Positions 781 through 63,779 of a DNA stretch of 64,000 nt are shown here, one piece after another (the first letter of the stretch is position 1; each line of letters begins with the position of its first letter). Position numbers and translations under genes: made by a program. Below the pieces are notes generated by a model. The model was not told where the DNA came from. It saw nothing but the letters and a program-made list of their open reading frames with translations, and did not search any database. The DNA is taken from the NCBI GenBank assembly GCA_018061265.1, contig JAGOUM010000002.1, positions 49,781 to 113,780 on the forward strand, read 5' to 3'. The DNA comes from Rhodoferax sp. (lineage in GTDB: Bacteria > Pseudomonadota > Gammaproteobacteria > Burkholderiales > Burkholderiaceae_C).

Positions 781-2493
781 ATGCCGCCCCACTCTGTGAA
801 CCAGCCCAACCCAGCCATCGTTGCACAAGTTGCAGTCAAGCGTTTGCCACGCCTGGCACTATGGTTGTTCTGTCTGGCCTACATACTGGCCGGTTTTGTC
901 GGTCGGGTGCCCTGGAAAAACGCAGATATCAGCAGCTTTGGCTACATGTTGACACTTGCCGTTGGCAACTCGGACTGGTGGCAGCCGATGCTGGGTGGGC
1001 TGTTGCCCGAGGTGCCCGCTCTTCTTCCTTATTGGCTTGGCGCGTGGGCGATCACGCTTTCACCTGATGGCTTGTCCGCTGATCTGGCGGCCCGGGTACC
1101 CTTCATGCTGCTGTTGGCACTCGCGTTGATCGCCACCTGGTACGGAACCTACTATCTGGCACGAAGTCCCCTGGCGCAACCAGTGGCTTTTGCCTTTGGC
1201 GGCGAGGCCGAACCCACAGACTACGCCCGGGCATTGGCCGACGCCGGGCTATTGGCCATGATGGCGTGCCTGGGCCTGGCGCAGCTGGCACATGAAACCA
1301 CGCCTGCCCTGGCACAGCTGTGCTTTACGGCCCTGCTGTTTTATGCGGCTGCGGCATTACCGTACCGTCCGTTGATCCCGGGCCTGGCGGCTGCAGGCGG
1401 CCTACTTGGCCTGACTCTTTCGGGTGCCCCGACTGTGGCTTTGCTGTTGGGTCTGGGAAGCGCATTGATTTACCTGCGGGAATCACCTCTTGGAGACGTG
1501 ACGCAAAAACACCGCCAACTGCGCGCCACCGGTATGGCAGGCATGACGTTGCTGTGTGCTTTGCTGGCGTTTGAGCTGAATTTGTGGCGCTGGAGCCTGG
1601 AATTACCAATGTGGTCCCAAGGCGATTGGCCCCGACTGGGTCGATTGTTTTTGTGGTTTACCTGGCCGGCCTGGCCACTGGCCTGCTGGACCGTCTGGCG
1701 CTGGCGGCACCAATTGCGCAGCGCTCGACTGAACAGCCGCCATCTCTGGATTCCTTTATGGTTTGTCGGTGTTGCGAGTGCAACAACGCTGGTCACCAGC
1801 GCGGCCGACCGCGCATTGCTGCTGGCCCTGCCCGCCCTGGCCACCTTGGCGGCGTTTGCCCTGCCAACGCTGAGCCGCAGCATGGGGGCGTTGATTGACT
1901 GGTTCACACTGATCTTTTTCAGTGGCTGCGCCATCGTGATCTGGGTGGTGTGGCTGTCCATGCAGACCGGTATTCCGGCAAAGCCGGCTCTCAATGTGGC
2001 ACGACTGGCACCCGCGTTTGTTCACAGCTTCTCACCAATAACCTTTGTCATAGCATTAATAGCTACTGCTGCATGGGCTTGGCTGGTTTTTTGGCGAACA
2101 GGCAGACACCGTGCCGCGCTATGGAAAAGTGTGGTCTTACCGGCTGGTGGGGCGGCACTGTGCTGGCTGTTGTTGATGACGCTATGGTTGCCATTGCTGG
2201 ATTTTGCGCGTAGCTACGTTCCTCTGGTGGCACAAACCACTGCCCTGATGCCACAAAGACCAGCGTGTGTCTCGACCCTGGGCTTGAGCCGGGGTCAGAT
2301 TGCTGCCTACACCTACCATGGTGAACTGTCTCTCAAACCAGTCATTGATGTTGCCGAGTGCAACTGGCTATTGGGAGACTCTGCGGTGCTGAACTACCTG
2401 TCGCAAACCACTGACAACTGGGAGTTTCGCGGTGCCGTGCGGCACCGCGGTGACCCCAAAGAAAAGCTCCTTCTGTACCAACGCCAGGATTAG
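781..2493 (+). CDS. Polytopic membrane protein, GT-C glycosyltransferase-like
   Basis: A 570-residue protein with about ten or more hydrophobic segments, the first near residues 20-40, and a C-terminal periplasmic-like tail after residue ~480. The order of elements resembles the ArnT/PMT-type GT-C fold: a first loop with acidic residues, a PEVPALLPYWLGAWAI stretch like the PPLYYWL region, and an AARVPFM segment like the aRLps motif. The usual Asp/Glu pair after the first helix is not clear, so catalytic activity is uncertain. A TTG at 763 could extend it by six codons but it would overlap the rpmE2 terminator's T-run; ATG 781 is chosen. One copy of the short dispersed repeat falls at codons ~424-433. 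Confidence 0.6.
   Translation: MPPHSVNQPNPAIVAQVAVKRLPRLALWLFCLAYILAGFVGRVPWKNADISSFGYMLTLAVGNSDWWQPMLGGLLPEVPALLPYWLGAWAITLSPDGLSADLAARVPFMLLLALALIATWYGTYYLARSPLAQPVAFAFGGEAEPTDYARALADAGLLAMMACLGLAQLAHETTPALAQLCFTALLFYAAAALPYRPLIPGLAAAGGLLGLTLSGAPTVALLLGLGSALIYLRESPLGDVTQKHRQLRATGMAGMTLLCALLAFELNLWRWSLELPMWSQGDWPRLGRLFLWFTWPAWPLACWTVWRWRHQLRSARLNSRHLWIPLWFVGVASATTLVTSAADRALLLALPALATLAAFALPTLSRSMGALIDWFTLIFFSGCAIVIWVVWLSMQTGIPAKPALNVARLAPAFVHSFSPITFVIALIATAAWAWLVFWRTGRHRAALWKSVVLPAGGAALCWLLLMTLWLPLLDFARSYVPLVAQTTALMPQRPACVSTLGLSRGQIAAYTYHGELSLKPVIDVAECNWLLGDSAVLNYLSQTTDNWEFRGAVRHRGDPKEKLLLYQRQD
2051..2079 (-). repeat. Dispersed AGCSC-N18-nnGCTA repeat, copy 1
   Basis: On the minus strand AGCCC, 18 bp, then ATGCTA followed by TGAC. 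It is antisense to its host gene (the GT-C-like protein) and encodes I-A-x7-A there. Surrounding sequence is markedly more AT-rich than the gene. Confidence 0.6.
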
Positions 2494-2504
2494 GCTGCTT
2501 TGGT

Positions 2505-3374: not shown

Positions 3375-3589
3375 GCAAATGTCTTTCAGGTCTGCCCGCA
3401 CTGCCAACCAGCACGATGGGCGAGGCTGCCGCTTGCGGCAATATTTCACCCGACCTCTGTCCGTACATTGGACACTGCGAGTGTTTCAAAGACCTGAGTA
3501 TGCCCGAGAAGACGGCCGAAAAACGAACATCGTTGTGCAAGGTGGCCTCTCACCTGCCCAAGCGCAGATGCCCATTTGCGGGTGAAGCA

Positions 3590-4549: not shown

Positions 4550-4597
4550 ACGCGCTTTCGGTTTTCAGATCAGTCAACAAGGAGGAGGCTCAGCAAC

Positions 4598-6112: not shown

Positions 6113-6261
6113 GGATCGATTCTCCTGCACCAAGCTTAGCAAGTTTCAGGCCCATCACGACAAAAATTGTGTCAACCGTATCAGTGGACCCGTGCCAATA
6201 TGCGCCGCATCGGCCCTCACAAAAAAAACTCATCGGACTTGAATCAGGTCAACCCAATGCA

Positions 6262-8664
6262 CTAATTTGGTACCTTATGCTGCCAGTAGTGCGGAGCGAC
6301 CTCTCGTTGACACCGGATAGACGGATCTGCACCAGAGCGCCACATCACTGCACCACAATGAGGCGTATCCAGCACCAGAATACTCCGCTCCTGGTAACGC
6401 AACATCACCGTCGCGTCCGGATGCCCGAATCGGTTGCGATAGCCGGATTGCACAACCGCTACCCGCGGTTGGACTGCCTCCAGAAACTCCACGCTGCTTG
6501 AAGTCTTGCTTCCGTGATGAGGCACCACCAGCAAATCAGCCGCCAAGACGGCGGTATCGACCAGGTGACGCTCTTGTTCAACCTCGATGTCTCCGGTCAA
6601 CAAAGCCGATGACTCGCCGGTTGAGACATGCAAGACACAACTTGTGGCATTGGCGCTGCGGGACCTTGGTTTGTCGTCGGCAAATGGGTGCAAAACACGA
6701 AAAACCACGCCGTCCCACTGCCAGTGCATTCCGGCCTCACACCGCTGTCCTGTTTTTAACTCGGTTTCGAATGAACTCAACAGTGCCGTTTGTGGTTGCA
6801 TTGCCAACAATGCCAGGGCACCACCGGTATGGTCACTGTCCCGGTGGCTAAGCACCAGCAGATCCAGGCGTTCGCCCAAAGCCCGCAATAATGGCACCAG
6901 CACACGTTGACCTGCGTCACTATCCTGACCATAGCGTGGCCCGGCGTCAAACATCAAGCTATGCTGGGCGGTTCGCACCAGAACAGCGCTGCCCTGCCCC
7001 ACATCCGCGGCCAAAACCTCAAACGTGCCGTTCAATGGTCGGGGCACCTGCCAGAACACCACCGGCAGCAACAATGGCACGCCCAACCATCGAATCGAGG
7101 CGGGCAGGCGCATCGCCACCGTGATGCCACCAAGAAAAGCCGCAAGTGCAGCCCATGTCGGTGCCTGGGATACCGACCAAAGCGCCCAGGGCATGGAGGC
7201 CATCCAGCGCAAAACGGCCATCATCCATCCCCCAGTCCAGGCCGCAAACTCCCACAGACCTGGCACGACCACGCCCAACATCGCCATGGGTGTCAATAGC
7301 AGAGTCACCCAGGGTATTGCCAATGCGTTGGCCGGAATACCGATCAGCGACACCTGCCCAAAGAGCAGCAGCGACAATGGTGCCAGCGCCAGAGTGATCA
7401 CCCATTGCTCCCTGAAAAAAGCAATAACCCGGCTGCCAGCCACCTTGTGTCCCGGTTTTTCAGAATCTGTTTCAGCGGCAAACAAGATACCAACGGCGAC
7501 AAAACTCAGCCAAAAGCCGGCCTGCAGAATGGCCCAAGGGTCCAGCATGACCACTGCCACACAAGCCAACAACCAGACCAGTGGCCAGGGCCAGCGGACG
7601 CCACTGAGCCGCAGCAGGCCGACACAGGTCAACATCAGTACGGTGCGCTGTGCCGGCACACCGAAACCACTGAACAAGGCATACAACAATGCCAGCAAGA
7701 TGCCGCCCAGAAGCGCGGCGCTGGCAGCAGGCAGTCGCAAGCACAGTGCGCCTGATCGCCGCCACAGCCACCCCACCACCCGAGCCGCCAGCCAGGCGAA
7801 CATGGTGATGTGCAAACCTGAAATACTAAGCAAGTGGGCCACGCCGGTGGCACGAAACACACTCCAGTCCTCCCGGTCGATGGCCTTTTGGTCACCCACC
7901 AACAGCGCAGCGATCAGCCCGCTGGATGCCGGATCGGCAAGCCGGTCTTCGATCTGTTGACGCACCTGTTCACGCCAGCGCGCCATCATGTAGCCGGACG
8001 CAGGTGCCAAGCGGGTCGGCATCGGATCTTTGGCACCGTTTCTCACATACCCCGTGGCCTGAACGCCTTGCTCCCATTGCCAGAGTTCGTAGTCAAATCC
8101 GTGCGGATTGACGCTGCCGTGCACCGCCTTAATTCTTGCATTGAAGCGCCAGCGCTCCCCCGCCCGGGGCAGGGGTGTCTGGCCAGCGGGCAAAACGCCG
8201 TCCGCGACATACCACGCCAGGTCGATCAAACCAGGGATCGCCACTGGCCTGCTGTCAACAACGGCACTCTCTGCTGCAAAGCGGAAGCGTTGGCCCAACG
8301 CAAAAGGCTGTGCCATGTCGGCCACTATGCCAGTCAGCGTCAGGTCATGCCCTTCCAGCACAGGGGCCAGGGTACGACTGACAAAAAAGCTCGCGCGCAA
8401 GCCGGTCAAAGCAAATGCAAACAGGGTAAAAATTATCACCCTGCAGAGTTTTTGACCGCCGTCCAGGCACAACAGTTTATTATTTTTAATAGCAGTAAAC
8501 ACATACAGGATAAGCGCAAGAGGCAACAATTGAGCATAAACGAGTAGCGGCCATAAAGTCACTTGCTGCAATTGCAATGCCGTCCCCAGCAAAATCCCCC
8601 CCAACATGGGGGCGAGCCAAGCCGACTGCTGACTTCTTGCGTGGCTGGCATTGGGTTTGAACAT
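6262..8664 (-). CDS. comEC: DNA internalisation competence protein ComEC/Rec2
   Basis: An 800-residue inner-membrane channel protein for uptake of single-stranded DNA in natural transformation. Order of domains: N-terminal helices and DUF4131-like soluble part (to ~220), the Competence transmembrane core (from ~230, containing GVAHLLSISGLHITMFAW), and a C-terminal metallo-beta-lactamase-like domain (from ~545) with VLAADVGQGSAVLV and LSHRDSDHTGG, the metal-ligand motif, proposed to degrade the non-transported strand. Length is normal for the family. Stands alone without other competence genes. Near residue 50-65 a short AT-rich stretch (TAIKNNKLLC) carries a dispersed-repeat copy. Confidence 0.95.
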   Translation of the reverse strand: MFKPNASHARSQQSAWLAPMLGGILLGTALQLQQVTLWPLLVYAQLLPLALILYVFTAIKNNKLLCLDGGQKLCRVIIFTLFAFALTGLRASFFVSRTLAPVLEGHDLTLTGIVADMAQPFALGQRFRFAAESAVVDSRPVAIPGLIDLAWYVADGVLPAGQTPLPRAGERWRFNARIKAVHGSVNPHGFDYELWQWEQGVQATGYVRNGAKDPMPTRLAPASGYMMARWREQVRQQIEDRLADPASSGLIAALLVGDQKAIDREDWSVFRATGVAHLLSISGLHITMFAWLAARVVGWLWRRSGALCLRLPAASAALLGGILLALLYALFSGFGVPAQRTVLMLTCVGLLRLSGVRWPWPLVWLLACVAVVMLDPWAILQAGFWLSFVAVGILFAAETDSEKPGHKVAGSRVIAFFREQWVITLALAPLSLLLFGQVSLIGIPANALAIPWVTLLLTPMAMLGVVVPGLWEFAAWTGGWMMAVLRWMASMPWALWSVSQAPTWAALAAFLGGITVAMRLPASIRWLGVPLLLPVVFWQVPRPLNGTFEVLAADVGQGSAVLVRTAQHSLMFDAGPRYGQDSDAGQRVLVPLLRALGERLDLLVLSHRDSDHTGGALALLAMQPQTALLSSFETELKTGQRCEAGMHWQWDGVVFRVLHPFADDKPRSRSANATSCVLHVSTGESSALLTGDIEVEQERHLVDTAVLAADLLVVPHHGSKTSSSVEFLEAVQPRVAVVQSGYRNRFGHPDATVMLRYQERSILVLDTPHCGAVMWRSGADPSIRCQREVAPHYWQHKVPN
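8490..8518 (-). repeat. Dispersed AGCSC-N18-nnGCTA repeat, copy 2
   Basis: Minus strand TGCGC, 18 bp, CTGCTA, then TTAAAAATAATAAAC. Sense to comEC and read as A-x7-A-I. Shares the TTATYC start of the spacer with the copy in hpnE. Confidence 0.6.
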
Positions 8665-15876: not shown

Positions 15877-18324
15877 TTATTGACCAAGCCCCTTCAGTTT
15901 GGCGAAAGCACTCGACATAGCCGTGGATTGTGGCGCATGTCCGCGTTGGCGTTGGCCTTGGACGCCACGTTGTTGCATTGAGACACTTTGAAATCGGTTA
16001 TCTCCGACCTTCTGCTCCTGTGGCGATTGGCCCAGCTTCATGGTCAATGCAATGCGCTTACGTGCCACATCCACCTCCACCACCTGCACTTTGACAATAT
16101 CGCCGGCTTTCACCACCTCACGCGCATCCTTGATAAACCTGTGCGCCAGCTGACTCACATGAACCAGGCCATCCTGATGCACACCGAGGTCAACAAACGC
16201 CCCAAAAGCGGCAACGTTACTGATCGTGCCTTCCAGCACCATACCCTCTTTCAGATCATGGATGTCGTTGACACCCTCATTAAAGCGAGCGACCCTGAAA
16301 TTCGGGCGCGGGTCACGACCGGGCTTCTCCAACTCCGCCAAAATGTCCTGGACGGTGATCACACCGAACTCTTGATTGGCGAACAGCTCTGGCCGTAACG
16401 CTTGAAGCACATCGGCCCGACCCATCAGCGCAGCCACCGGTCTGTCGGTACTGGCCATGATGGCGTGCACAACCGGATAGGTCTCGGGGTGAACACCGGT
16501 CATATCCAAGGGGTTGTCACCGTCTCGAATTCTCAAAAAACCAGCGCTTTGCTCAAAAGTTTTGGCGCCAAGTCCCGACACCTGCAACAACTGGGCACGG
16601 TTGACAAAGGCACCATTGGCCTCACGCCAGCGAACCACCGCCCGTGCAACGCCACCAGACAGCCCGGAAACCCTTGACAACAAGGGCACACTTGCCGTGT
16701 TGAGGTCAACCCCAACGGCGTTAACACAGTCCTCCACCACAGCGTCGAGCGCCCGGGCCAGATCGGACTGATTCACGTCATGCTGGTATTGCCCGACACC
16801 GATGGACTTAGGATCAATTTTGACCAATTCGGCCAGCGGGTCCTGCAAGCGCCGCGCGATGCTTGCGGCACCACGCAGACTCACATCGACATCGGGCATT
16901 TCCTGACTGGCAAACTCACTGGCCGAATACACTGACGCCCCAGCCTCACTGACAACTACCTTTTCAATAGCATTAAAACCTTTATTACATTGCGCTAGGG
17001 CCGAATTTCCCAATAATTTGAGCAACTCCCCAGCGAGGCGGTCGGTTTCCCGGCTGGCGGTGCCATTCCCTATAGCAATCAGGTTGACACCATGACGCAA
17101 ACATAAATGACGAAGAGTTTGCAGCGCACCATCCCAGTCGCGGCGCGGTTCATGCGGGTAAACCGTCGTCGTGTCAACCAATTTACCGGTGGTATCGACC
17201 ACTGCAACTTTCACGCCGGTACGAATTCCCGGGTCCAGACCCAGTACGACGCGTGGCCCGGCGGGTGCTGCAAGCAAAAGATCTCGTAGATTGTCGGCAA
17301 ACACCTTGATGGCCACCGCCTCCGCGGCATCACGCAGCCGAGCAAAAAGTTCACGTTCGGTGGACAGACTCAGTTTGACGCGCCAGGTCCAGGCCACACA
17401 TTTGCGGATCAAATCATCCGCTGGCCGGTGCTGATGCTGCCAGCCCAGCTGGACTGCAATCCGGCCTTCAGCCAAACTGTTGGCGTGATGACTTCGTTTT
17501 CCTACGGAGTCGGGTGATTCTTCTGACGGCGCTAAGGGCTGTTTTCCGGAGGTGCCCTGCGCACCGAGAACAAGCGATTCTGGCAGCACCAGGCGCACCT
17601 CAAGAATCTCCTGTCCACGTCCCCTGAATACAGCCAACGCCCGATGCGAAGGCACGCGGCAGATCGGCTCCTGATAGTCGAAATAATCTCGAAACTTGGC
17701 GACCTCGACCTGCTGTGGGTCCTTGCCTTCTAACAGGCGGCTGCTGAACAAACCTTCGGCCCATATCCACTCGCGCAGTTCCCGAACCAGGTTGGCGTCC
17801 TCCGCCCAGCGTTCGCTGAGGACGTCTCGAACACCATCGAGTACCGATTGCACCGAGGTGAAATCGTCCCCCGAATCATTTTTTTCCAATTTGACATAAG
17901 CCTGCGCCGCCACAGCCGGGTCCTTGGATGGGTCATTCATGATCGCATGGGCCAGGGGTTCGAGTCCCGCTTCACGCGCGATCTGCCCCTTGGTTCGCCG
18001 CTTTGCCTTGTAGGGCAGATACAAATCTTCAAGTTCCTGCTTGGTCGATGCCGCCATCAACGCCGCGCGCAACGCAGAATGCATCTTGCCTTGCTCTTCA
18101 ATGCTGGCAATCACGCTTGTGCGTCGCTGCTGCAGTTCGCGCAAATAGCCCAAACGTGACTCGAGCGCACGCAACTGGATATCGTCAAGCCCACCAGTGG
18201 CTTCTTTGCGGTATCGGGCGATGAAGGGCACGGTCGCACCCCCGTCCAGAAGTTCGATAGCGGCGCTGACCTGTGGAGCATTGACGCCAAGTTCGCGGGT
18301 GATCTGTTGAATGAGGAGTTGCAT
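15877..18324 (-). CDS. tex: Tex family RNA-binding transcription accessory protein
   Basis: An 815-residue protein (E. coli YhgF/Tex is about 773). Domains in order: helical Tex N-domain (1-190), YqgF/RNase H-like fold (VVLGLDPGIRTGVKVAVVD), the strongly conserved VVVSEAGASVYSASE and VDVSLRGAASIARRLQDPLAELVKIDPKSIGVGQYQHDV blocks, HhH pair (LNTASVPLLSRVSGL), and a C-terminal S1 domain (GMVLEGTISNVAAFGAFVD). Start set at the ATG giving MQLLIQQITRELGV; an upstream ATG adds 37 non-conserved residues. About 26 extra residues lie before the WTWR region (bases 17476-17570), and a dispersed-repeat copy lies before VVVSEAG. First gene of an apparent operon with an HDOD and a GGDEF-EAL gene. Confidence 0.95.
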   Translation of the reverse strand: MQLLIQQITRELGVNAPQVSAAIELLDGGATVPFIARYRKEATGGLDDIQLRALESRLGYLRELQQRRTSVIASIEEQGKMHSALRAALMAASTKQELEDLYLPYKAKRRTKGQIAREAGLEPLAHAIMNDPSKDPAVAAQAYVKLEKNDSGDDFTSVQSVLDGVRDVLSERWAEDANLVRELREWIWAEGLFSSRLLEGKDPQQVEVAKFRDYFDYQEPICRVPSHRALAVFRGRGQEILEVRLVLPESLVLGAQGTSGKQPLAPSEESPDSVGKRSHHANSLAEGRIAVQLGWQHQHRPADDLIRKCVAWTWRVKLSLSTERELFARLRDAAEAVAIKVFADNLRDLLLAAPAGPRVVLGLDPGIRTGVKVAVVDTTGKLVDTTTVYPHEPRRDWDGALQTLRHLCLRHGVNLIAIGNGTASRETDRLAGELLKLLGNSALAQCNKGFNAIEKVVVSEAGASVYSASEFASQEMPDVDVSLRGAASIARRLQDPLAELVKIDPKSIGVGQYQHDVNQSDLARALDAVVEDCVNAVGVDLNTASVPLLSRVSGLSGGVARAVVRWREANGAFVNRAQLLQVSGLGAKTFEQSAGFLRIRDGDNPLDMTGVHPETYPVVHAIMASTDRPVAALMGRADVLQALRPELFANQEFGVITVQDILAELEKPGRDPRPNFRVARFNEGVNDIHDLKEGMVLEGTISNVAAFGAFVDLGVHQDGLVHVSQLAHRFIKDAREVVKAGDIVKVQVVEVDVARKRIALTMKLGQSPQEQKVGDNRFQSVSMQQRGVQGQRQRGHAPQSTAMSSAFAKLKGLGQ
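16968..16996 (-). repeat. Dispersed AGCSC-N18-nnGCTA repeat, copy 3
   Basis: Minus strand AGCGC, 18 bp, ATGCTA, then TTGAAAA. Sense to tex, read as A-x7-A-I just before the VVVSEAGASVYSAS block, at a point where Tex proteins vary in length. Confidence 0.6.
17476..17570 (-). other. In-frame insertion within tex
   Basis: Between the conserved FRGRG...EVRL and PADD...WTWR segments, this Tex has roughly 26 more residues than E. coli YhgF as I recall it. The extra part (GTSGKQPLAPSEESPDSVGK followed by RSHHANS) is polar and Ser/Pro-rich. Its DNA contains a small inverted repeat, GGTGC-CCTGC-GCACC (plus-strand orientation). It does not match the nnGCTA repeat family. No second copy was seen in this window. 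Confidence 0.5.
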
Positions 18325-18664
18325 GGATCTGCAGTGGACCCGCCAACCTGATGGCGGCATATTGACAAAGCGCAGGAGTGTGCCACAGCCTTCGTCGGGC
18401 ACGTCGAATGGGCCAGGCCAAAGACTCAAAGCCACCTGGTCGGGTTTCTTGATCCGGATCGGCAGACTATCGATAGCAAGTTTTTGACATCTGGCATGAC
18501 GAATTTGCCGATCTATAGAACCGCTCTAGCTATGAATTCAACACATCGCCGCCAGAAGTCGCTATGCTTTGCTGTTATATTGAAGGCGTTGGAATCAATG
18601 CATCCAAGTTGAGGTGCACAAGGCCGCTTAGATTGTCTACAAAACTGCCACATCAGAACCGCTT
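18325..18664. other. Divergent intergenic region between tex and the HDOD-histidine kinase
   Basis: 340 bp without a convincing gene. It is AT-rich in 18460-18600 and must hold the promoters of both divergent operons. A TATATT hexamer at 18576-18581 is a possible -10 for the kinase operon but I could not pair it with a convincing -35. GATAGC and TAGCTAT words at 18470-18535 resemble the dispersed repeat but lack its 18-bp spacing. Confidence 0.4.
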
Positions 18665-33220: not shown

Positions 33221-33377
33221 ATTGACATTTTGCCTGTGCATTCAGGTAACGCGTCGGCTTCCTTACAATCCGCCGATGCTTTTTTGCCCGCTCCATTTTT
33301 GCCTGTTGGTGGCTCCTGACGCCACGGCTGGTCCTGCCGTCACGCTGGCTCGTGCCGTTGCCACGGTGCCCTGATTC

Positions 33378-40206: not shown

Positions 40207-40956
40207 ATGACCAGATCCCTGATTGCCTTTGTCCGGTTGATCCGGCTGGTGTTCCATGTGCTGTCTGGCCTGTGGCTGGTGGCCTTGCACTTTCCCAGCC
40301 AATCATCAGCGCAAAAATCTGCACAAATTAAGGCATGGGCGCAATCCCTGCTTCAATTGATTGCTATTGATGTTGAAGTAAGAGGCGTGTCGCCACAGCA
40401 AGGTCCGATGCTGCTGGTGGCCAACCATATCTCCTGGCTGGACATTGTGTTGCTGCTGGCAACCAGCCCCTGCCGCTTTGTCGCCAAATCCGAAATCGCC
40501 GCTTGGCCACTTCTGGGCCAATTGACCCGCGCCGCTGGCACCTTGTTTATCGCCCGGGATTCGCCGCGCGACGCGTTACGCGTGGTGCATCACATGGCAC
40601 AGGAACTTCAAGCTGGTGCCCTTCTGGCAGTGTTTCCCGAAGGCACCACCAGCAATGGATTGCAATTGTTGCCGTTTCATGCCAACCTGTTGCAGGCCGC
40701 CATTTCGGCGCATGCGCCAGTGCAACCCGTTGCACTCAGGTTTGTCGACACACACAGCGGCAAACCCAGCTTGGCACCGTGTTACATCGACGATGACAGC
40801 TTGCTGGATTCGGTGTGGCGCACACTGCGCGCCCCGGGCTTGCGCGCCAGCGTGCAGTTTGGCGAGGTGCAAACAGCTGACGGCCGCGACCGTCGGGCCT
40901 GGGCAGCGGACCTGCGCCATACCATTGGTCAAACCCTGGGATACCCGCCCGATTGA
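40207..40956 (+). CDS. 1-acyl-sn-glycerol-3-phosphate acyltransferase family protein (PlsC-like)
   Basis: A 249-residue membrane-associated acyltransferase. An N-terminal hydrophobic helix (~7-27) anchors it; catalytic motif I is NHISWLDI (H-x4-D) and motif III FPEGTTS. It acylates a lysophospholipid-type substrate; it could equally be an OlsA/ornithine-lipid type enzyme. ATG 40207 is chosen because the frame upstream (from 40084) overlaps the HTH gene and is not conserved in character. A repeat copy spans codons ~45-54. Convergent with uvrD, 4 bp apart. Confidence 0.85.
   Translation: MTRSLIAFVRLIRLVFHVLSGLWLVALHFPSQSSAQKSAQIKAWAQSLLQLIAIDVEVRGVSPQQGPMLLVANHISWLDIVLLLATSPCRFVAKSEIAAWPLLGQLTRAAGTLFIARDSPRDALRVVHHMAQELQAGALLAVFPEGTTSNGLQLLPFHANLLQAAISAHAPVQPVALRFVDTHSGKPSLAPCYIDDDSLLDSVWRTLRAPGLRASVQFGEVQTADGRDRRAWAADLRHTIGQTLGYPPD
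40338..40366 (+). repeat. Dispersed AGCSC-N18-nnGCTA repeat, copy 6
   Basis: GGCGC, 18 bp, TTGCTA, then TTGATGTTGAAG. Sense to the plsC-like gene, read as A-x7-A-I between the membrane anchor and the catalytic domain. Confidence 0.55.
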
Positions 40957-40960: not shown

Positions 40961-43408
40961 TCAGGGCAGCGGTGTGAGTTTGGCCACGCTGAGCGCCAGC
41001 CATTTCAGGCCATGGCGCGGAAAATTGATCTGCGCCCGGGCGTCGTCACCACTGCCCTCCAGGCTGAGCACCGTGCCTTCACCAAACTTGGCATGAAAAA
41101 GCCTTTGGCCCACTTTGAAGCCGTGCCCAGCTGGCTCGGAGCGGGCGACCGGTGCTGGCCCCGAGTAGCGTGAGAAATCTGCACCAAATTGGCCTCTGGT
41201 GCTTGATGCATAGTTGTTTTCAGCTTCACTAAATGCAGCAAACTTACCACCCCTGCGCACGCTGTTATTGGCGAACCCAGCCTGTTTCGGCGTGATCCAT
41301 TTCAAGGCTTCGTCGGGCAACTCCTCCAAAAAACGGCTGCGCAGGTTGTAGCGTGTCTGACCGTGCAACATGCGGGTTTGTGAGTGGCTGAGGTACAGGC
41401 GCTGGCGCGCCCGGGTGATGGCGACGTACATCAGGCGGCGCTCCTCTTCCAGGCCCGCCTGGTCCGACATGGAATTCTCGTGCGGGAACAAGCCCTCTTC
41501 GAGCCCGCTGATAAAGACCGCGTCGAATTCCAGCCCTTTGCTGGCGTGGACGGTCATCAGCTGAACGGCGTCCTGCCCGGCCTGTGCCTGGTTGTCACCG
41601 GCTTCAAGTGCTGCGTGGGTCAGGAAGGCAGCCAGGGGTGACAGGGTTTCGCCCGAATCAACATCGGGTGCGGGTGTATCCAGCATGGGCTGGTTCAAAT
41701 CCAGACCCTGCGAAGCCGGGGACTGGGTCAGTGGCTGGCCCAGTTCATCCACGGGCAGCGCCACCGCGTCTTTGCCAAAGCCCTCCAGGGTGACAAAACT
41801 CTCGGCCGCGTTGACCAGTTCTTCAAGGTTCTCAACCCGGTCAGCGCCCTCCCGATCGGCCTTGTAATGGGTGATCAGGCCGCTGTGCTCCAGCGTGGCG
41901 GCAATAATGTCACGCAGGCTCATGTCCAAGGTTCGCTCGCGCAGCACATCAATGCCGGCCAGAAAAGCGCCAATGTTGCTTCCCGCTTTACCACCCAGAC
42001 CACTGACGGCATCGCTCAGGGCGCAACCAGTGGCACGCGCCTGGTCCTGTAGCTGCTCCAGGCTGCGGGCTCCGATACCACGCGGCGGGAAGTTGACCAC
42101 GCGCAGGAAACTGGTGTCGTCACGCGGGTTCTCCAGCAAGCGCAGGTAGGCCAGCGCATGCTTGATTTCGGCACGCTCAAAAAAGCGCAGGCCACCATAA
42201 ACTTTGTACGGTATGCCCGCATTGAACAATGCGGTCTCGATCACGCGGCTTTGGGCATTGCTGCGGTAGAGCGCAGCCACCTCTTTGCGCGCCATGCCAC
42301 CTTGCACCAACTGCTGCATCTCGTCGACCATCCACTGCGCCTCAGAGAAATCGCTGCTGGCTTCCAGCACCCGCACCGGCTCGCCCGGCCCTTGGGCAGT
42401 GCGCAGGCTCTTGCCTAGACGGCTGCGGTTATGGCTGATCAAGGCATTGGCGCTGTCCAGGATATTGCTGCCGCTGCGGTAGTTTTCTTCGAGCTTGATT
42501 TGATGCTGAACCTCAAACTCGCGCACAAAATCTGCCATGTTGCCAACGCGTGCGCCACGAAAGGCATAGATGCTCTGGTCGTCGTCACCGACTGCCAACA
42601 CGCAGCCGGTCGACTGGAAAGCACCTTCAACGCCGCTGTGTGCCCCGGTGCCCGCGAGCATCTTGATCCAGGCGTATTGCAACTTGTTGGTGTCCTGAAA
42701 CTCGTCGATCAGGATTTGACGGAATCGGCGCTGGTAATGCTCACGAATGGGGTCGTTGTCACGCAGCAGTTCATAGCTGCGCAACATCAGCTCGCCAAAG
42801 TCCACCACACCTTCGCGCTGGCATTGTTCTTCGTAAAGCTGGTAGATCTCGACTTTTTTACGGGTCTCCGGGTCTTTGGCCACGACCGCCGCAGGGCGCA
42901 GTCCGTCTTCTTTGCAGCCGCTGATAAACCATTGAACCTGTTTGGGTGGCCAGCGCTCGTCGTCAATGCCAAACTGCTTGTACAGCCGCTTGATGGACGA
43001 CAACTGGTCCTGGGTGTCGAGAATCTGAAACGACTGCGGCAGACCCGCCAGCTTGTAATGCGCGCGCAACAGCCGGTTGCACAAGCCGTGAAAAGTGCCA
43101 ATCCACATGCCGCGCACGTTCACGGGCAACATGGATGACAGGCGCGTCATCATCTCCTTGGCGGCCTTGTTGGTGAAGGTGACCGCCAAAATCCCTGCGG
43201 GTGATACCAGCCCGGACTGAAGCAACCAGGCAATTCGGGTAGTGAGCACCCGGGTCTTGCCCGAGCCGGCTCCCGCAAGTATCAGCGCATGCTCGGCAGG
43301 CAGCGTGACGGCCGCGAGTTGCTCGGAGTTGAGGTGGTTAAGCAGCGCGCTGCCGGACGGCAGCGGACCCACTTCTGACGAGCCAATAGGGGACATGGTA
43401 GAAAGCAT
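40961..43408 (-). CDS. uvrD: UvrD/PcrA-type DNA helicase II
   Basis: An 815-residue superfamily 1A helicase for nucleotide-excision and mismatch repair. Motifs: Walker A GAGSGKT (~46-52), TFTNKAA, DEFQDTN (II), GDDDQSIYAFRGA (III), LEENYRSG (IV), TVHASKGLEFDAVFI (V) and VAITRARQRL (VI). The C-terminal HAKFGEGTVLSLEG module is the Tudor-like RNA-polymerase-contact domain of PcrA/UvrD. ATG 43408 is used; an ATG five codons in (MSPIGSSE) is also possible and neither has a clear ribosome site. Divergent from a secreted-protein gene, 23 bp apart. Confidence 0.95.
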   Translation of the reverse strand: MLSTMSPIGSSEVGPLPSGSALLNHLNSEQLAAVTLPAEHALILAGAGSGKTRVLTTRIAWLLQSGLVSPAGILAVTFTNKAAKEMMTRLSSMLPVNVRGMWIGTFHGLCNRLLRAHYKLAGLPQSFQILDTQDQLSSIKRLYKQFGIDDERWPPKQVQWFISGCKEDGLRPAAVVAKDPETRKKVEIYQLYEEQCQREGVVDFGELMLRSYELLRDNDPIREHYQRRFRQILIDEFQDTNKLQYAWIKMLAGTGAHSGVEGAFQSTGCVLAVGDDDQSIYAFRGARVGNMADFVREFEVQHQIKLEENYRSGSNILDSANALISHNRSRLGKSLRTAQGPGEPVRVLEASSDFSEAQWMVDEMQQLVQGGMARKEVAALYRSNAQSRVIETALFNAGIPYKVYGGLRFFERAEIKHALAYLRLLENPRDDTSFLRVVNFPPRGIGARSLEQLQDQARATGCALSDAVSGLGGKAGSNIGAFLAGIDVLRERTLDMSLRDIIAATLEHSGLITHYKADREGADRVENLEELVNAAESFVTLEGFGKDAVALPVDELGQPLTQSPASQGLDLNQPMLDTPAPDVDSGETLSPLAAFLTHAALEAGDNQAQAGQDAVQLMTVHASKGLEFDAVFISGLEEGLFPHENSMSDQAGLEEERRLMYVAITRARQRLYLSHSQTRMLHGQTRYNLRSRFLEELPDEALKWITPKQAGFANNSVRRGGKFAAFSEAENNYASSTRGQFGADFSRYSGPAPVARSEPAGHGFKVGQRLFHAKFGEGTVLSLEGSGDDARAQINFPRHGLKWLALSVAKLTPLP

Positions 43409-43431: not shown

Positions 43432-44187
43432 ATGTGTCATCGTTTGAAGAAGCCCAGTACCGCCAGTCGGAACACGATTGACCGCCTCAAGTCAGGTGCC
43501 GTGGCTGCACTACTGATTGTGGGGACCACCGGGACAGCCTGGGGTCAATTTTTGTGCAGCAGCGACAACCAGGTCGCACCCGCAGCCCTGGCTGAGCGAT
43601 TTATCAGCGCCGACTGTGCGTTTTGCTGGCGGCAGCCTGTGCCCGTGCCAAAGTCTGCCTCAGGGCTGACGCTGGACTGGATCGTGCCGGGCGCACTAGG
43701 CGACGAAGCCCCACTTTCGACGGCAGCCAACCGGGACGCGCTGGTCCGCCTGGAATCTCTGGATCTGGCCGCGCCACAGACCCAACGCCTGGTCCATCAG
43801 GTGGTGGACTTGCCGCCTGAAATCAGCTTGCGCGTTGCGCATGGTTTGGTGCTTGGTGGCTATGTCGGGGCGTCCATTTCACTGAGCTTCGTCAAAACAA
43901 CCCAAACCAAACTGCCCTTGCACGCCTGGCTGGTGCTGGTTGAACACCTTCCAGCCGGAACCGAAGGCAGTCCCACGCCAAGAATTCTCGCAAGAAACAT
44001 GCTCCAGCCCATATGGAACATTGATAGTTCGCTACAAAATAATGTTGTTTACCAGGAAACTGAAATGCGGCCGATGAATATCCCTGCTGGCACCAACACC
44101 GCCAACATCGGGGTCGTAGGCTGGGTATCAGACCATACTGGCAAGATTCTGGTTGCCGCCCAATCCGCCTGCTCGCCAGATCAATAA
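43432..44187 (+). CDS. Secreted protein of unknown function with CxxC motif
   Basis: A 251-residue protein with a Sec-type signal (basic start, hydrophobic AVAALLIVGTTGTAWG near residues 23-38). After cleavage the mature part starts near QFLCSSDN. FISADCAFCWRQP (~58-70) holds a CxxC pair, which could be a redox or disulphide site; a thioredoxin-like reading is possible but the rest of the fold was not recognised. AAAGG precedes ATG 43432 by 7 nt. Divergent from uvrD. A dispersed-repeat copy lies near residues 192-200. Confidence 0.7.
   Translation: MCHRLKKPSTASRNTIDRLKSGAVAALLIVGTTGTAWGQFLCSSDNQVAPAALAERFISADCAFCWRQPVPVPKSASGLTLDWIVPGALGDEAPLSTAANRDALVRLESLDLAAPQTQRLVHQVVDLPPEISLRVAHGLVLGGYVGASISLSFVKTTQTKLPLHAWLVLVEHLPAGTEGSPTPRILARNMLQPIWNIDSSLQNNVVYQETEMRPMNIPAGTNTANIGVVGWVSDHTGKILVAAQSACSPDQ
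44006..44034 (+). repeat. Dispersed AGCSC-N18-nnGCTA repeat, copy 7
   Basis: AGCCC, 18 bp, TCGCTA, then CAAAATAATG. In the secreted-protein gene, sense, but read in a different codon phase from the other copies; the weakest of the nine. Confidence 0.45.
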
Positions 44188-49489: not shown

Positions 49490-49582
49490 TGGTGCCCGAG
49501 ACCGGAATCGAACCGGTACGCCCGTTATTCACGAAGCGGCGGATTTTAAGTCCGATGTGTCTACCTATTTCACCACTCGGGC
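49490..49582 (-). tRNA. tRNA-Leu (anticodon TAA)
   Basis: Acceptor GCCCGAG pairs with CTCGGGC; discriminator A and encoded CCA (49490-49492). Anticodon loop CTTAAAA gives TAA; a long variable arm (CGTGAATAACG region) marks a class II tRNA; T-arm GGTTCGATTCC is present. Last tRNA of the four-tRNA minus-strand cluster. Confidence 0.97.
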
Positions 49583-49601
49583 ACAGTGTGTATTGTGAAA
49601 C

Positions 49602-49635
49602 AAAAAAACCTCCGCGAGACCGGATCCGCAGGAGG
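49602..49635 (-). terminator. Terminator after tRNA-Cys
   Basis: On the minus strand CCTCCTGCG pairs with CGCGGAGG (one bulged base), loop of 10, followed by seven T (49602-49608). It separates tRNA-Cys from tRNA-Leu. Confidence 0.75.
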
Positions 49636-49659
49636 TTTGACACAAGACACAGCTGAGAC

Positions 49660-49733
49660 TGGAGGCGCGACCCAGAGTCGAACTGGGCTAGACGGATTTG
49701 CAATCCGTTGCATAACCGATTTGCTATCGCGCC
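49660..49733 (-). tRNA. tRNA-Cys (anticodon GCA)
   Basis: Acceptor GGCGCGA/TCGCGCC with the U73 discriminator typical of tRNA-Cys, encoded CCA (49660-49662), anticodon loop TTGCAAA (GCA), T-arm GTTCGACTC. Class I, 74 nt including CCA. Confidence 0.97.
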
Positions 49734-49742
49734 AAACTCATC

Positions 49743-49770
49743 ACAAAAAAGGGAAGCACACGCTTCCCTT
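49743..49770 (-). terminator. Terminator after the first tRNA-Gly
   Basis: Minus strand GGGAAGC-GTGT-GCTTCCC, a perfect 7-bp stem, followed by six T. It ends the tRNA-Gly transcript, so tRNA-Cys must have its own promoter or depend on read-through. Confidence 0.8.
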
Positions 49771-49779
49771 TCTGAGAAC

Positions 49780-49855
49780 TGGAGCGGGAAAAGAGTCTCG
49801 AACTCTCGACCTCAACCTTGGCAAGGTTGCGCTCTACCAACTGAGCTATTCCCGC
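49780..49855 (-). tRNA. tRNA-Gly (anticodon GCC), copy 1
   Basis: Acceptor GCGGGAA/TTCCCGC, D-arm AGCTCAGTTGGTAGAGC, anticodon loop TTGCCAA (GCC), T-arm GTTCGAGAC, encoded CCA (49780-49782). Identical to the copy 36 bp upstream on the same strand. Confidence 0.97.
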
Positions 49856-49891
49856 ATTAGTGCAAAAAAAAATCGCACCAAAAAAACCATT

Positions 49892-49967
49892 TGGAGCGGG
49901 AAAAGAGTCTCGAACTCTCGACCTCAACCTTGGCAAGGTTGCGCTCTACCAACTGAGCTATTCCCGC
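49892..49967 (-). tRNA. tRNA-Gly (anticodon GCC), copy 2
   Basis: Identical in every base to copy 1, including the encoded CCA (49892-49894) and the ATT just upstream of the 5' end. First gene of the tandem; a TATAAT lies 14 bp before it. Confidence 0.97.
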
Positions 49968-53855: not shown

Positions 53856-53860
53856 GAGAA

Positions 53861-55916: not shown

Positions 55917-55939
55917 AAATTCATCTCCAAAAATAGGTG

Positions 55940-56058: not shown

Positions 56059-56150
56059 GAAAATTGGTTAGCCACACATTTTAACCCGTTGACACACCAA
56101 ATTTGGACGACTCCGTCACCAAAGTGTCATGGGTCAGAGTGGGGTTGCGA

Positions 56151-59318: not shown

Positions 59319-59330
59319 GACCCGAACCCC

Positions 59331-60515
59331 TTACTTGGCCACTGCCGCAGGGGCAGCTGAGCTTGCCTGAACTGCTACTGGGAAACTAGCTGTCTGCGCT
59401 TGACTGCTAAGCGCTGGAGGCATTTTTTCCTTATAAAGTGTGACTTTCTGCCCGGGCGACAACACATGCACGCCCGCCGTCACCACCTGCATACCGGGCT
59501 GCAAGCCGGCCGTGATCACCACCGCGTTGCCATCGGCCGTGGCGACCTGCACGGGTTGCAGCTTCACGGTCATGCTGGCCACATCAAGCACCCAGACCGC
59601 TGTGCCCTGGCCCTCTTGGCGCAAGGCACTGGTGGGCAGTTTGATCACTTGGGTACCGGCGTGTTGCAGCACCGCGGGCAACACCGCTACCGTACTACCC
59701 AAGGGCCAGTCGGTGCCGGGCGGCAGCGCCACCTTGACGGCGAAGGTGCGCGTCACGGGGTCGGCACTGGCGGCCACCTCACGCACCTGGGCGTTCACCG
59801 TGCTGTTGCTGGACCAGCTGCGCACCAGCGCCGCGTTGCCGACGCGCAAGGCACCCACTTTGTCTTCGGGTACGGCAAACACCGCGTCGCGGGCGCCGTC
59901 CTGCGCCAGTTGCAATACCGGTGTGCCGGCAGCAAGCACCTGACCCGGCTCGGCCAGAATAGCGGTGACCACACCGGAGGCGTCCGCGCTCAGCGTGGCG
60001 TAGCCGCTCTGGTTGCCTTGGGCCGCTGCCTGCGCCTGCGCCGCTTGCAGTTGCGCCTGCGCCGCCTTGAGTGTTGTGTCGCGCCGCTCCAATTCGGCGC
60101 CGCTGATAAAGTTTTGCGCCTTGAGCGACTCATAGCGTTTGAAGTCCGCAGCCGCCAGATCGCGGTTGGTCTGGGCCGCAGCCACTTGGGCGCGGGCCGC
60201 GTCCGCCGCCAGTTTGAGGTCTTGCGCGTCCAGCCGTGCCAGCACCTGACCCGCGCGCACGCGCTGACCCAATTCGGCCGGGCGCTCGATCAGTTTGCCA
60301 CCCACCCTGAAACCCAGCCGCGACTCCACCCTTGCCCGCACCTCCGCGGCATACTCCAGCCCGGCCTGCGCCGACTGCAAGCCCACCGTGGTGACCTTCA
60401 CCGAGCGAATCGGCTCGGTGGGCGCGGGCGGCTTGGAGCACGCCACCAGCAGACAGGCAGCCGCTATAGTCAGACCCAAGCCGGCGCGCGGGGTGCGGGA
60501 AAACAAAACATTCAT
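59331..60515 (-). CDS. RND efflux periplasmic adaptor (membrane fusion) lipoprotein
   Basis: A 394-residue adaptor linking the permease to an outer-membrane channel. A lipoprotein signal ends at C26 (LLVAC); then a barrel-sandwich half (RVESRLGFRVGGKLIERPAELGQRVRAGQVLARLD), an alpha-hairpin rich in Ala/Gln (~105-170), the second lipoyl half (DASGVVTAILAEPGQVLAAGTPVLQL) and beta-barrel/membrane-proximal domains. ATG 60515 gives a proper signal; the frame upstream (to 60698) overlaps the divergent hpnC. First gene of the operon, under a candidate TetR-type operator. Confidence 0.94.
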   Translation of the reverse strand: MNVLFSRTPRAGLGLTIAAACLLVACSKPPAPTEPIRSVKVTTVGLQSAQAGLEYAAEVRARVESRLGFRVGGKLIERPAELGQRVRAGQVLARLDAQDLKLAADAARAQVAAAQTNRDLAAADFKRYESLKAQNFISGAELERRDTTLKAAQAQLQAAQAQAAAQGNQSGYATLSADASGVVTAILAEPGQVLAAGTPVLQLAQDGARDAVFAVPEDKVGALRVGNAALVRSWSSNSTVNAQVREVAASADPVTRTFAVKVALPPGTDWPLGSTVAVLPAVLQHAGTQVIKLPTSALRQEGQGTAVWVLDVASMTVKLQPVQVATADGNAVVITAGLQPGMQVVTAGVHVLSPGQKVTLYKEKMPPALSSQAQTASFPVAVQASSAAPAAVAK

Positions 60516-60545
60516 GGCAACATTTCCGAGAGTTTTTTCAGTTAC

Positions 60546-60559
60546 TGACCGAATGGTTA
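60546..60559. promoter_or_regulatory. Candidate TetR-type operator between adaptor gene and hpnC
   Basis: TGACC-GAAT-GGTTA, an imperfect palindrome (4 of 5 arm positions; 5 of 7 when extended), 31-44 bp upstream of the adaptor ATG and 17 bp before the hpnC TTG. The spacing and half-site resemble operators of TetR-family efflux repressors. No regulator gene is adjacent. Confidence 0.4.
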
Positions 60560-60575
60560 TTAATTTTAGAGCCAA

Positions 60576-61517
60576 TTGGCCGGCTGTCAATCGAGCAGCC
60601 GGGTTGCGGCTGCGTTGACTGTTGTTCCTGTGCCAACCCTGCCCCCTGCCCCACGGCCTGCACCACCCGAACCCGTTGCGGTGGCGCCGGTTACCCACTA
60701 CGAAAACTTTCCGGTGGCCTCATGGCTGTGCCCGCCGCATCTGCGCCCGGCCATCGCGGCGATTTACCATTTCGCCCGCACCGCCGACGACCTGACAGAT
60801 GAAGGCACAGCCGACGCCACCGCGCGCCTGGCCGACCTCGCAGCCTACCGGGCCGAGCTGCTGGCCGAGGCCAGTTCTCCGAGCCGGGCTGAGGGACGAT
60901 GGTCCCAAGTATTTACACCCTTGTGCCACATCATCCGGACACACCACTTGCCACTGAATTTGCTGACCGACCTGCTGGACGCCTTTGAGCAGGATGTGCG
61001 CTACACCGCGCAGCAGCGCCGTTATGCCGATGACGCAGAATTGCTGGACTACTGCAAACGCTCGGCCAATCCGATCGGCCGATTACTTCTGCACCTGTAT
61101 GGCATCGACGATGCGCGCAGCCTTGCCCGCAGCGACGCCATTTGCACAGCCTTGCAACTGATCAACTTCTGGCAGGACGTATCGGTGGACCTGGCGCGCG
61201 GGCGCTGGTACCCCAGTGTGCAGGCGATGGCCCACCACGGGGTGCTCGATGCCGATCTGCAGCCTCAAAGCCAGGCCAGATCTGCATCCAGGCTGATAGC
61301 TGCTTACGCCCGTGCAGCAAGGGCTGGGATGCAAAATGGTGCTGAATTGGTGCATCACATCCCAGGACGCGCTGGTTGGGAATTGAGGCTGGTGGTGCAA
61401 GGCGGCTTGCGCGTACTGGACAAGATCGAGGCGCTTGGTTTTGCCACCTGGCGCACGCGCCCCAAGTTAACGGCTTTGGACGCGCCATGGATCATCTGGC
61501 GAAGTTTATGGATGTAG
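60576..61517 (+). CDS. hpnC: Squalene biosynthesis protein HpnC (hydroxysqualene synthase)
   Basis: A prenyl-synthase-fold enzyme (313 residues from the first TTG) that turns presqualene diphosphate into hydroxysqualene. Domain begins at HYENFPVASWLCPPHLRPAIAAIYHFARTADDLTDE, with the first Asp-rich motif DDLTDE, and the second at NFWQDVSVDLARGRWY. The Pro-rich first ~38 residues lie before the conserved part, and no ATG occurs there: TTG 60576, TTG 60615 or GTG 60630 are all possible starts. A dispersed-repeat copy sits at LIAAYARAARAG. First gene of hpnC-hpnD-hpnE, divergent from the RND operon. Confidence 0.92.
   Translation: MAGCQSSSRVAAALTVVPVPTLPPAPRPAPPEPVAVAPVTHYENFPVASWLCPPHLRPAIAAIYHFARTADDLTDEGTADATARLADLAAYRAELLAEASSPSRAEGRWSQVFTPLCHIIRTHHLPLNLLTDLLDAFEQDVRYTAQQRRYADDAELLDYCKRSANPIGRLLLHLYGIDDARSLARSDAICTALQLINFWQDVSVDLARGRWYPSVQAMAHHGVLDADLQPQSQARSASRLIAAYARAARAGMQNGAELVHHIPGRAGWELRLVVQGGLRVLDKIEALGFATWRTRPKLTALDAPWIIWRSLWM
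61297..61325 (-). repeat. Dispersed AGCSC-N18-nnGCTA repeat, copy 8
   Basis: Minus strand AGCCC, 18 bp, CAGCTA, then TCAGCC. Antisense to hpnC and read as I-A-x7-A in the helix before the conserved GRAGWELRLVVQGG. Confidence 0.55.
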
Positions 61518-61573
61518 ACCCTGCGGCTTGTCGGCCCTGCTGATTAAACTCGGACCACAGCTGCATCCAACCC

Positions 61574-62413: not shown

Positions 62414-62432
62414 TCATCAGGGCCACGCTCAA

Positions 62433-63779
62433 ATGGCAGGTTCGGGTCTGAATATTGCCATCATTGGCGCTGGTTGGGCCGGCCTGGCTGCGGCGGTGCG
62501 CGCCACCGAAGAGGGACACAACGCCACTGTTTTTGAAGCCTCCAACACGCTTGGTGGAAGGGCCAGAGCACTGATGGTCACCCTGCCAGATGGACGTGAG
62601 CTGGCGCTTGACAACGGGCAGCACATTCTGATTGGTGCCTACCATGCCACACGGCAACTGCTGCGTACCGTTGGTGTTCAAGCTGAAACCGCACTGCTGG
62701 ATCTGCCCATGGCACTGCAGTTTGCCGACGGCGATGGGCTGCGTTTTACCGATTGGCCGACACCACTGGACGCACTCGGTGGCATCCTGCTGGCTCGGGG
62801 CTGGACATGGTCCGACAAGGTTTCCCTGCTGAGTCAGGCGGTCCGTTGGCGGCTTAAGGGTTTTCAATGCCCACCGGCTCTGACCGTGGACCACCTTTGC
62901 CGTGCACTGACTCCCCGGGTGCGCCAGGAATTGATCGAGCCGCTCTGTGTCTCGGCTTTAAATACTCCAGCGCAACAAGCCAGTGGCACGGTGTTTCTGC
63001 GGGTTTTGCGTGATGCCATGTTTGGTGCGCGCGGTGGCTCGCACCTGCTGCTACCCATGACCGATCTCAGCAGTTTGTTCCCGGACGCAGCAGCCAGTTG
63101 GTTGCAGCAACACGGCAGCCTTGTGCGGCGCAACGCCAGAGTTGAGGGTTGGCATCGCGACGGTAAACACTGGCTGCTCGAGGTGCGCGACCAACACCAC
63201 CCGATGGCATCCCGACGCTTCGACACCCTGGTACTGGCAACTTCTGCATCCAATGCGGCTCAAGCGCTTATTCAGCATGCAAACATAGCTATAAACGCTA
63301 TATCAAACAATTGCCTTGAGTGGGCTAGAACAGCGCAATCACTGCGTTTTGAGGCCATTGCCACCGTGTACGCCTACCACCCCCATGCCACTTTGCCACA
63401 ACCGATGCTGGCACTGCACAGCGATGCCGTTTGTCCGGCTCAGTTTGTATTTGACCGAGGCCGGCTGTGCGGCCCCAAGGGTCTGCTGGCCTTTGTGGTG
63501 AGTGCTGCCCGTGGTGACAAGGCCGACCTGCAACAGCAGGTGCTAGCCCAGGCCCACCAGCAGTTCGGGCTTGATCTACAGGCTGTTCAGACCATTGTGG
63601 AAAAGCGCGCCACATTTGCCTGTACACCTCAGTTGAAGCGTCCGCCCGCCGCCATTGCGCCAGGATTGTTCGCCTGCGGAGACTACATTGACGGACCTTA
63701 TCCGGCCACGCTGGAGGGCGCGGTGCTCAGTGGCCAGGCGGTCATCCGAACGATCCTGAGCCACCAGAATCCGGCGTGA
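62433..63779 (+). CDS. hpnE: Hydroxysqualene dehydroxylase HpnE
   Basis: A 448-residue FAD-dependent amine-oxidase-fold protein making squalene from hydroxysqualene. The Rossmann motif is GAGWAGLAAAVRATEEGHNATVFEA (~11) followed by the LGGRAR motif; the C-terminal FAD contact is GLFACGDYIDGPYPATLEGAVLSGQAVI. Third gene of hpnCDE. The stretch QALIQHANIAINAISNNCLEW (~277-297) is AT-rich and carries a repeat copy in a region where relatives vary. The stop directly abuts the stop of the convergent YidB gene. Confidence 0.94.
   Translation: MAGSGLNIAIIGAGWAGLAAAVRATEEGHNATVFEASNTLGGRARALMVTLPDGRELALDNGQHILIGAYHATRQLLRTVGVQAETALLDLPMALQFADGDGLRFTDWPTPLDALGGILLARGWTWSDKVSLLSQAVRWRLKGFQCPPALTVDHLCRALTPRVRQELIEPLCVSALNTPAQQASGTVFLRVLRDAMFGARGGSHLLLPMTDLSSLFPDAAASWLQQHGSLVRRNARVEGWHRDGKHWLLEVRDQHHPMASRRFDTLVLATSASNAAQALIQHANIAINAISNNCLEWARTAQSLRFEAIATVYAYHPHATLPQPMLALHSDAVCPAQFVFDRGRLCGPKGLLAFVVSAARGDKADLQQQVLAQAHQQFGLDLQAVQTIVEKRATFACTPQLKRPPAAIAPGLFACGDYIDGPYPATLEGAVLSGQAVIRTILSHQNPA
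63263..63291 (+). repeat. Dispersed AGCSC-N18-nnGCTA repeat, copy 9
   Basis: AGCGC, 18 bp, TAGCTA, then TAAACGCTATATC. Sense to hpnE, read as A-x7-A-I. With copy 5 it is the best match to the family consensus. Confidence 0.65.

Follow-up and report, generated by a model that had tools for sequence, protein, structure and literature searches.

A DNA stretch of 64,000 nucleotides from Rhodoferax sp. (contig JAGOUM010000002.1, positions 49,781 to 113,780; hereafter the window) was found to carry a dispersed motif, GCSC-N20-GCTA, in hpnE, tex, thrB, comEC and other genes as well as between genes. Analysis of the copies in this genome and of related genomes indicated that the motif is probably an in-place DNA signal of some kind. 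The pattern equals the motif of an earlier sequence-only reading minus its first base, and it matched the window 13 times, against a mean of 3.1 and a maximum of 8 in 100 dinucleotide shuffles; all nine sites listed in that reading were among the 13. Keeping the copies of Tex, HpnE and ThrB out of training produced the leave-out profile (the copies at 8490, 40338 and 59387 remained eligible), which gave 12 sites at E<0.005, of which 8 had been listed and 4 were new. The ninth listed site, 2051 on the minus strand, was weak (8.6 bits, E 0.11), and the bare-motif matches at 19894 and 39440 (2 of the 13) were not supported by the profile. Of the 12 sites, 7 were recovered at E<0.01 with a profile built from a different species (genome G121). 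The sites are given below with the leave-out score followed by the G121 score.

2037..2081, minus strand: weak listed site in the open reading frame (ORF) 763-2493, plus; 8.6 bits, 7.3 bits
8476..8540, minus strand: near the 5' end of comEC (6262-8664, minus; TIGR00361); 26.6 bits (training-eligible), 13.1 bits
16953..17020, minus strand: in tex (15877-18435, minus), sense, frame 0; 25.4 bits (own copy left out), only 5.7 bits
23551..23603, minus strand: in an intergenic stretch, new; 14.2 bits, 8.7 bits
32365..32425, plus strand: antisense in ORF 30344-33241, minus (polA in the sequence-only reading); 13.0 bits, 12.4 bits
34085..34152, plus strand: in thrB (33378-34373, plus); 19.4 bits (own copy left out), 12.7 bits
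37066..37130, minus strand: between convergent genes, new; 15.2 bits, 8.1 bits
40313..40380, plus strand: in a PlsC-like acyltransferase gene (40207-40956, plus); 22.9 bits (training-eligible), only 4.7 bits
41173..41230, plus strand: antisense in an 815-aa ORF (40961-43408, minus), new; 12.9 bits, 15.7 bits
43983..44040, plus strand: in a 251-aa ORF with no Pfam match (43432-44187, plus); 16.0 bits, 3.9 bits
59370..59437, minus strand: at the 3' end of an RND adaptor gene (59331-60698, minus), new; 30.4 bits (training-eligible), 21.0 bits
61280..61349, minus strand: antisense in hpnC (60681-61517, plus; TIGR03464); 19.1 bits, 15.0 bits
63238..63305, plus strand: in hpnE (62433-63779, plus), sense, frame 0; 28.1 bits (own copy left out), 27.2 bits

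The hpnE copy was present at the same site in G121 and, by eye, in four further genomes.

Size, copy number and distribution

The whole-genome scan for GCSC-N20-GCTAT returned 154 + 163 occurrences (317) against 19 + 12 (31) for the reversed pattern, which bears out the claim of a genome-wide repeat. The length of 29 bp given for it did not hold. A logo of 46 matches from 422.8 kb of the window's own genome showed information over about 67 bp, from about -24 to +42 around GCSC, with AT tracts at -24 to -19 and -13 to -10, the GCSC core, GCTAT and AT-rich sequence to about +42. The AT-rich flanks described earlier were confirmed, and the two tracts left of the core were spaced about one helical turn apart. 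The logos were anchored on GCSC and GCTAT, so that the invariance of both is imposed; the remaining positions are degenerate.

Iterated profiles gave 56 distinct sites in the same 422.8 kb and, in 400 kb each, 62 sites in G099, 67 in G121 and 91 in G120 (149 raw matches in the latter, 74 of them anchorable), with zero matches in the reversed sequence of all four genomes. Extrapolation from these samples of about 400 kb gave an estimated 560-830 copies per genome. The motif thus occurs, like the uptake signal sequence (USS) and the DNA uptake sequence (DUS), in hundreds of copies on both strands and far above chance. No strand bias was seen in the genome-wide and family pattern counts, and an apparent one-strand bias in G099 was rejected because minus-strand copies are present in the sequence. 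Regular spacing was likewise rejected, the spacing being near Poisson (coefficient of variation 0.85, Kolmogorov-Smirnov p 0.21).

Among 150 Comamonadaceae genomes, the strict pattern was present in 51, with at least 10 copies in 33 (counted from the table) and with about even strands, against 5 occurrences of the reversed pattern in total. Of 200 genomes sampled across the order, 195 belong to other families; these gave 6 matches, each in a different genome, while the reversed pattern matched 18 times. Restriction of the motif to the family Comamonadaceae is well supported, and its presence there, in line with the mention of similar short repeats in the sequence-only reading, was confirmed. 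A set of 80 named Tex loci contained 41 profile matches in 14 loci, with zero in reversed sequence; the loci with the motif include Rhodoferax, Polaromonas, Acidovorax, Comamonas, Extensimonas and Xylophilus. Among the named loci listed, the Tex closest to that of the window (76% identical) came from a Rhodoferax metagenome-assembled genome. Two records, L159 and L175, are titled Akkermansia muciniphila and Methylobacillus, with Tex 69% and 63% identical to that of the window, and the first at least looks mislabelled.

No description of the motif was found in the literature searches made, with the possible exception of the Beta-proteobacterial repeat element (BRE). The BRE is also a small dispersed repeat with some copies wholly coding (PMC3110155), and it has been reported from Polaromonas, Delftia, Rhodoferax, Acidovorax and Verminephrobacter, among others, with at most 29 copies (PMC3110155). 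It differs from the motif in its length of about 90 bp, its 69% GC in Bordetella and its sometimes tandem arrangement, a comparison made by text description only (PMC3110155). Some of the Comamonadaceae BRE entries, known here by description, may be this motif.

Placement in genes and comparison with orthologues

Matches from three genomes (195, at 185 distinct sites) were compared with gene calls from our own simple codon-usage caller, not a published one. Wholly coding copies, as the nine listed sites had been described earlier, made up 74 of the 195, and 121 were not wholly coding. Phase was assigned for 60 of the 74 (14 were unanchorable and were dropped): among sense copies a codon began with GCSC in 30 of 36, and among antisense copies one phase was common to 18 of 24, in agreement with the shared coding phase proposed before. 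The sense-frame bias could stem from stop avoidance alone, since inspection of the consensus showed TAG or TGA stops in the remaining sense frames; the earlier remark that stop codons restrict the phase was correct in this respect. The matches not wholly coding and located between called genes were distributed as 32 convergent, 77 tandem and 10 divergent, while the available gaps amounted to 17.3 kb, 96.8 kb and 29.0 kb, respectively, so that convergent gaps were favoured. Repetitive extragenic palindromes (REP), their mosaic arrays (bacterial interspersed mosaic elements, BIME) and gyrase sites in other bacteria show a 3'-side and convergent bias too.

Host genes in the window's own genome include tex, hpnE, thrB, dprA, ispD, ETF-alpha, the linkers of PDH E2 and E3, and cheB. 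Loop and linker positions were frequent among the host proteins, as the sequence-only reading had suggested. At L043:9834-13504, the PDH E3 and E2 genes are neighbours, and each has one motif copy in an interdomain linker.

Five host genes were compared with their orthologues. Tex carriers had 42 residues between the anchors, while 66 of the 89 other readable loci had 30-36, ten had 41 and others up to 71. The six HpnE carriers, called by eye, had 58-61 residues and the others 47-73 (one was unreadable), and the net length change in HpnE is uncertain because of this wide range among non-carriers. ThrB had the window's length in 30 of 30 orthologues, the PNP-like gene was of equal length in 6 of 6 full orthologues, and ETF-alpha had 57 residues in two species of the genus, 56 in 23 others and 55 in one. 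Length change was therefore none in two of the five genes, one codon in one, and larger but variable in two; a clean gain of about 22 codons fitted none of the five. Clean insertion of the whole unit is unsupported at all five host genes, judging from the compared sequences.

Two profiles served to score the sites: the training set of the first omitted the own copies at the five genes, and the second came from G121 stretches in which its copies are absent. With the better of the two, 20 of 21 called carrier sites scored 8.4-36.5 bits (the exception, L055, reached only 2.6 bits), and none of the remaining 91 among the 112 site sequences exceeded 4.0 bits. The ThrB of G121, partly similar by eye, gave no profile score, and the scoring missed 9 of 26 ETF-alpha sequences (the own copy and eight others) and a few others owing to the anchor pattern.

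The Tex residues flanking the motif, LIKxxxK and IEKVV, look native, with similar residues in most non-carriers. For the codon test, carriers were chosen by their 42-residue length alone and duplicates were removed, leaving 19 distinct sequences (among them L175, whose sequence does not resemble that of a carrier) and 80 shorter ones. Third-position GC in the two footprint blocks was 54/114 and 42/114 in the 19 against 401/480 and 407/480 in the 80, while outside the footprint the values were alike (0.88, 0.84 and 0.80 against 0.86, 0.86 and 0.81). It was lower inside than outside the footprint in 19 of 19 carrier-length sequences against 38 of 80 shorter ones. An earlier version of the test, in which the carrier rule GCTAT-N-[GC]AA fixed two third positions of the right block, gave the same result. 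It is well supported by these comparisons that the native flanking residues were kept in Tex and that their codons were AT-recoded. The match to the motif consensus at third codon positions was 0.636 in sense coding copies against 0.651 at the same alignment positions in non-coding copies; the copies were found by profile, and the detection bias affects both groups.

The claim that the motif is a small non-autonomous element inserted in genes found no support in these comparisons. An old mobile repeat (a miniature inverted-repeat transposable element, MITE, or one like the Rickettsia palindromic elements, RPE), inserted in genes with flanks later lost or adapted, would agree with the greater length of Tex carriers over most non-carriers, with the frequency of loops and linkers among the hosts, and with the occupation of the same Tex loop by another repeat in L136 and L183. 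Such an origin is considered improbable, as ThrB and the PNP-like gene are unchanged in length, ETF-alpha has gained one codon, and the native Tex residues are kept and recoded. Rickettsia palindromic elements are whole-unit insertions in the reading frames of many genes; the motif shares with them its presence in many reading frames, and no whole-unit insertion was seen at the five sites. The insert in the Tex loop of L136 and L183 is different from the motif, repeat-like and of the GTTCGCCCTGAGC...TCGAAGGG type.

All the evidence of DNA-level selection in place applies equally to a binding site for a chromosomal factor outside the uptake machinery, such as a nucleoid protein, gyrase, or a segregation or repair factor. 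The distance of about one helical turn between the AT tracts to the left of the core, and the 3'-side and convergent bias of the copies, are also in keeping with such a site. This explanation is considered rather doubtful, given that no candidate factor was found, the spacing is near random and there is no strand bias.

Pairing, dialects and the RAYT gene

The consensus looks palindromic. A test of 20 pairs in 169 anchored copies from three genomes showed no consistent base-pair covariation (pooled permutation p 0.046-1), although several columns were too invariant for the test, and no hairpin kept by compensatory changes, as in REP, was found in the pooled copies or per genome. A function as RNA or hairpin was rejected, since Rfam gave only tRNA matches, single-stranded DNA folds of three consensus sequences were no more than mildly stable (z -0.65 to -1.84) and covariation was not consistent. 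A weak structural constraint may act on the motif.

The middle of the motif depends on the lineage, being GCCCA...TGGGC-like in G099 and GCGCTT...AAGCGC in G121 and G120. In a comparison of three genomes, all 7 of 7 orthologous copies fitted best with the profile of the genome they came from; one of them, the RAYT copy of G000, was anchored one base off. With this copy dropped and four added, a comparison of four genomes gave 7 of 10.

REP and BIME associated with the REP-associated tyrosine transposase (RAYT; NF047646) resemble the motif in high copy number, a palindromic-looking consensus, 3'-side bias and, in several carriers, a copy beside RAYT. On this reading the RAYT (Y1_Tnp) gene of the family would have made or spread the motif as a REP-type element, which would now be mostly fossil. 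This gene is mostly single-copy and was present in 142 of 150 family genomes (NF047646 match of 77.7 bits, cut-off 80). A set of 41 RAYT loci, of which 21 come from genomes with at least 10 strict copies, showed that the RAYT stop codon is the start of a motif copy (E<1e-4) in G035, G099, G120 and G121; G072 and G138 have weaker copies, and in G010 a copy directly precedes the RAYT start. Motif copies at RAYT are often followed by TGTCCC, which in G047, G134, G034 and G007 lies within a few bases of the stop.

Several results make this origin unlikely. RAYT was equally common in non-carrier genomes, and it was rejected as a discriminating gene for this reason. The RAYT flanks carry other motifs (GGGGTCAGATTCCAATTA, TGTCCCYAATTA), and the RAYT of G136 lacks, by eye, HxH and the tyrosine, yet G136 has 80 strict motif copies. 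Unlike REP and BIME, the motif has stems without consistent covariation, and its coding copies are not cleanly inserted at the five genes. In the REP system the RAYT gene is flanked by two inverted copies (PMC2817692); across the 41 loci the motif was found on one side only, mainly the 3' side. The association between RAYT and the motif is a real one at a single locus, but its orthologous copies may represent one event. The G136 frame (L251) is open, and the absence of HxH and the catalytic tyrosine suggests a non-transposase role or decay. G015 had twenty Y1_Tnp matches, several of identical score, against none to three in the other genomes searched.

The motif as a possible uptake signal

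The copy pattern of the motif (numerous copies on both strands, apparent change in place, lineage-dependent forms, a core between AT tracts and a 3'-side bias) resembles USS and DUS, and selective transformation has been reported in Comamonadaceae; for these two reasons an uptake signal for natural transformation is tentatively preferred as the role of the motif, by analogy with USS and DUS. The USS of Pasteurellaceae and the DUS of Neisseriaceae have, like the motif, many copies on both strands, in coding and intergenic DNA, with lineage dialects (PMC3630211), and USS is described as consisting of a core plus AT tracts and as changing by point mutation (PMC7811141). Their cores are about 9-12 bp, while the motif is about 67 bp, degenerate, sparser and known here from its sequence.

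Natural transformation has been reported for Verminephrobacter eiseniae and two Acidovorax species; in A. temperans it worked only with DNA of the same species (PMC4212676). Transformation of V. eiseniae was sequence-selective, and uptake withstood an excess of foreign DNA (PMC4212676). No uptake signal is named in the available portion of that account of Comamonadaceae (PMC4212676). A slightly more tentative proposal is that the motif is the uptake signal behind this sequence-selective transformation, which would make the family a third uptake lineage of independent origin, whose signal is bipartite, spans about 67 bp and has dialects that keep species apart.

Whatever its reader may be, the unit is probably a double-stranded DNA signal; its 67 bp or so would be recognised by base sequence, and perhaps by the shape of the AT tracts, rather than as a hairpin. 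Copies would arise by substitution in place, sometimes with a small length change, and would then be maintained by selection or drive at the DNA level. Under the uptake proposal, DNA bearing the motif would be preferentially bound and taken up, and the imported DNA would recombine into the chromosome, carrying the motif to homologous sites and leaving one dialect per lineage.

A number of observations weigh against the uptake proposal and its premise of change in place. Many DUS in Neisseria arise via recombination and not by point mutation (PMC2397512), and the cores of USS and DUS are much shorter and less degenerate than the motif, which is also sparse (about 1 per 4-8 kb). ComEC was over the cut-off in 138 of 150 family genomes, and this near universality led to its rejection as a discriminating gene; in the carrier G042, listed as 100% complete, the ComEC match was only 6.5e-4, so that this genome seems to lack the gene. 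The strict pattern occurred in 13 stretches in 12 of 2.9 million viral contigs. BLAST found the motif in 0 of 50,697 phage records and 4 of 72,556 plasmid records, which is weak evidence because the same BLAST misses most sites in carriers, recovering only 12, 0, 1 and 1 sites in about 400 kb of four of them. The greater length of Tex carriers over most non-carriers leaves room for a partial insertion, and the p values of the Tex codon test (1.6e-14 and 1.4e-23) are overstated, the carriers being related. To these are added the copies at RAYT stop codons, the 4 of 60 single-genome pair tests with p 0.003-0.0125, slightly above expectation, and the 3 of 10 copies that fitted another genome best in the four-genome dialect test.

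If the motif is an uptake signal, it offers a testable cause of the Acidovorax species barrier and of the selectivity of Verminephrobacter in transformation, and adds a third case to the question of where such signals come from. At its estimated copy number, and with its presence in core genes of a fifth to a third of the sampled family genomes, the motif would place a large constraint on how genomes and proteins evolve, one that has gone unrecorded except possibly as BRE.

Rfam models at gathering thresholds matched tRNAs only in the window, where four tRNA genes are clustered at 49493-49967 on the minus strand.

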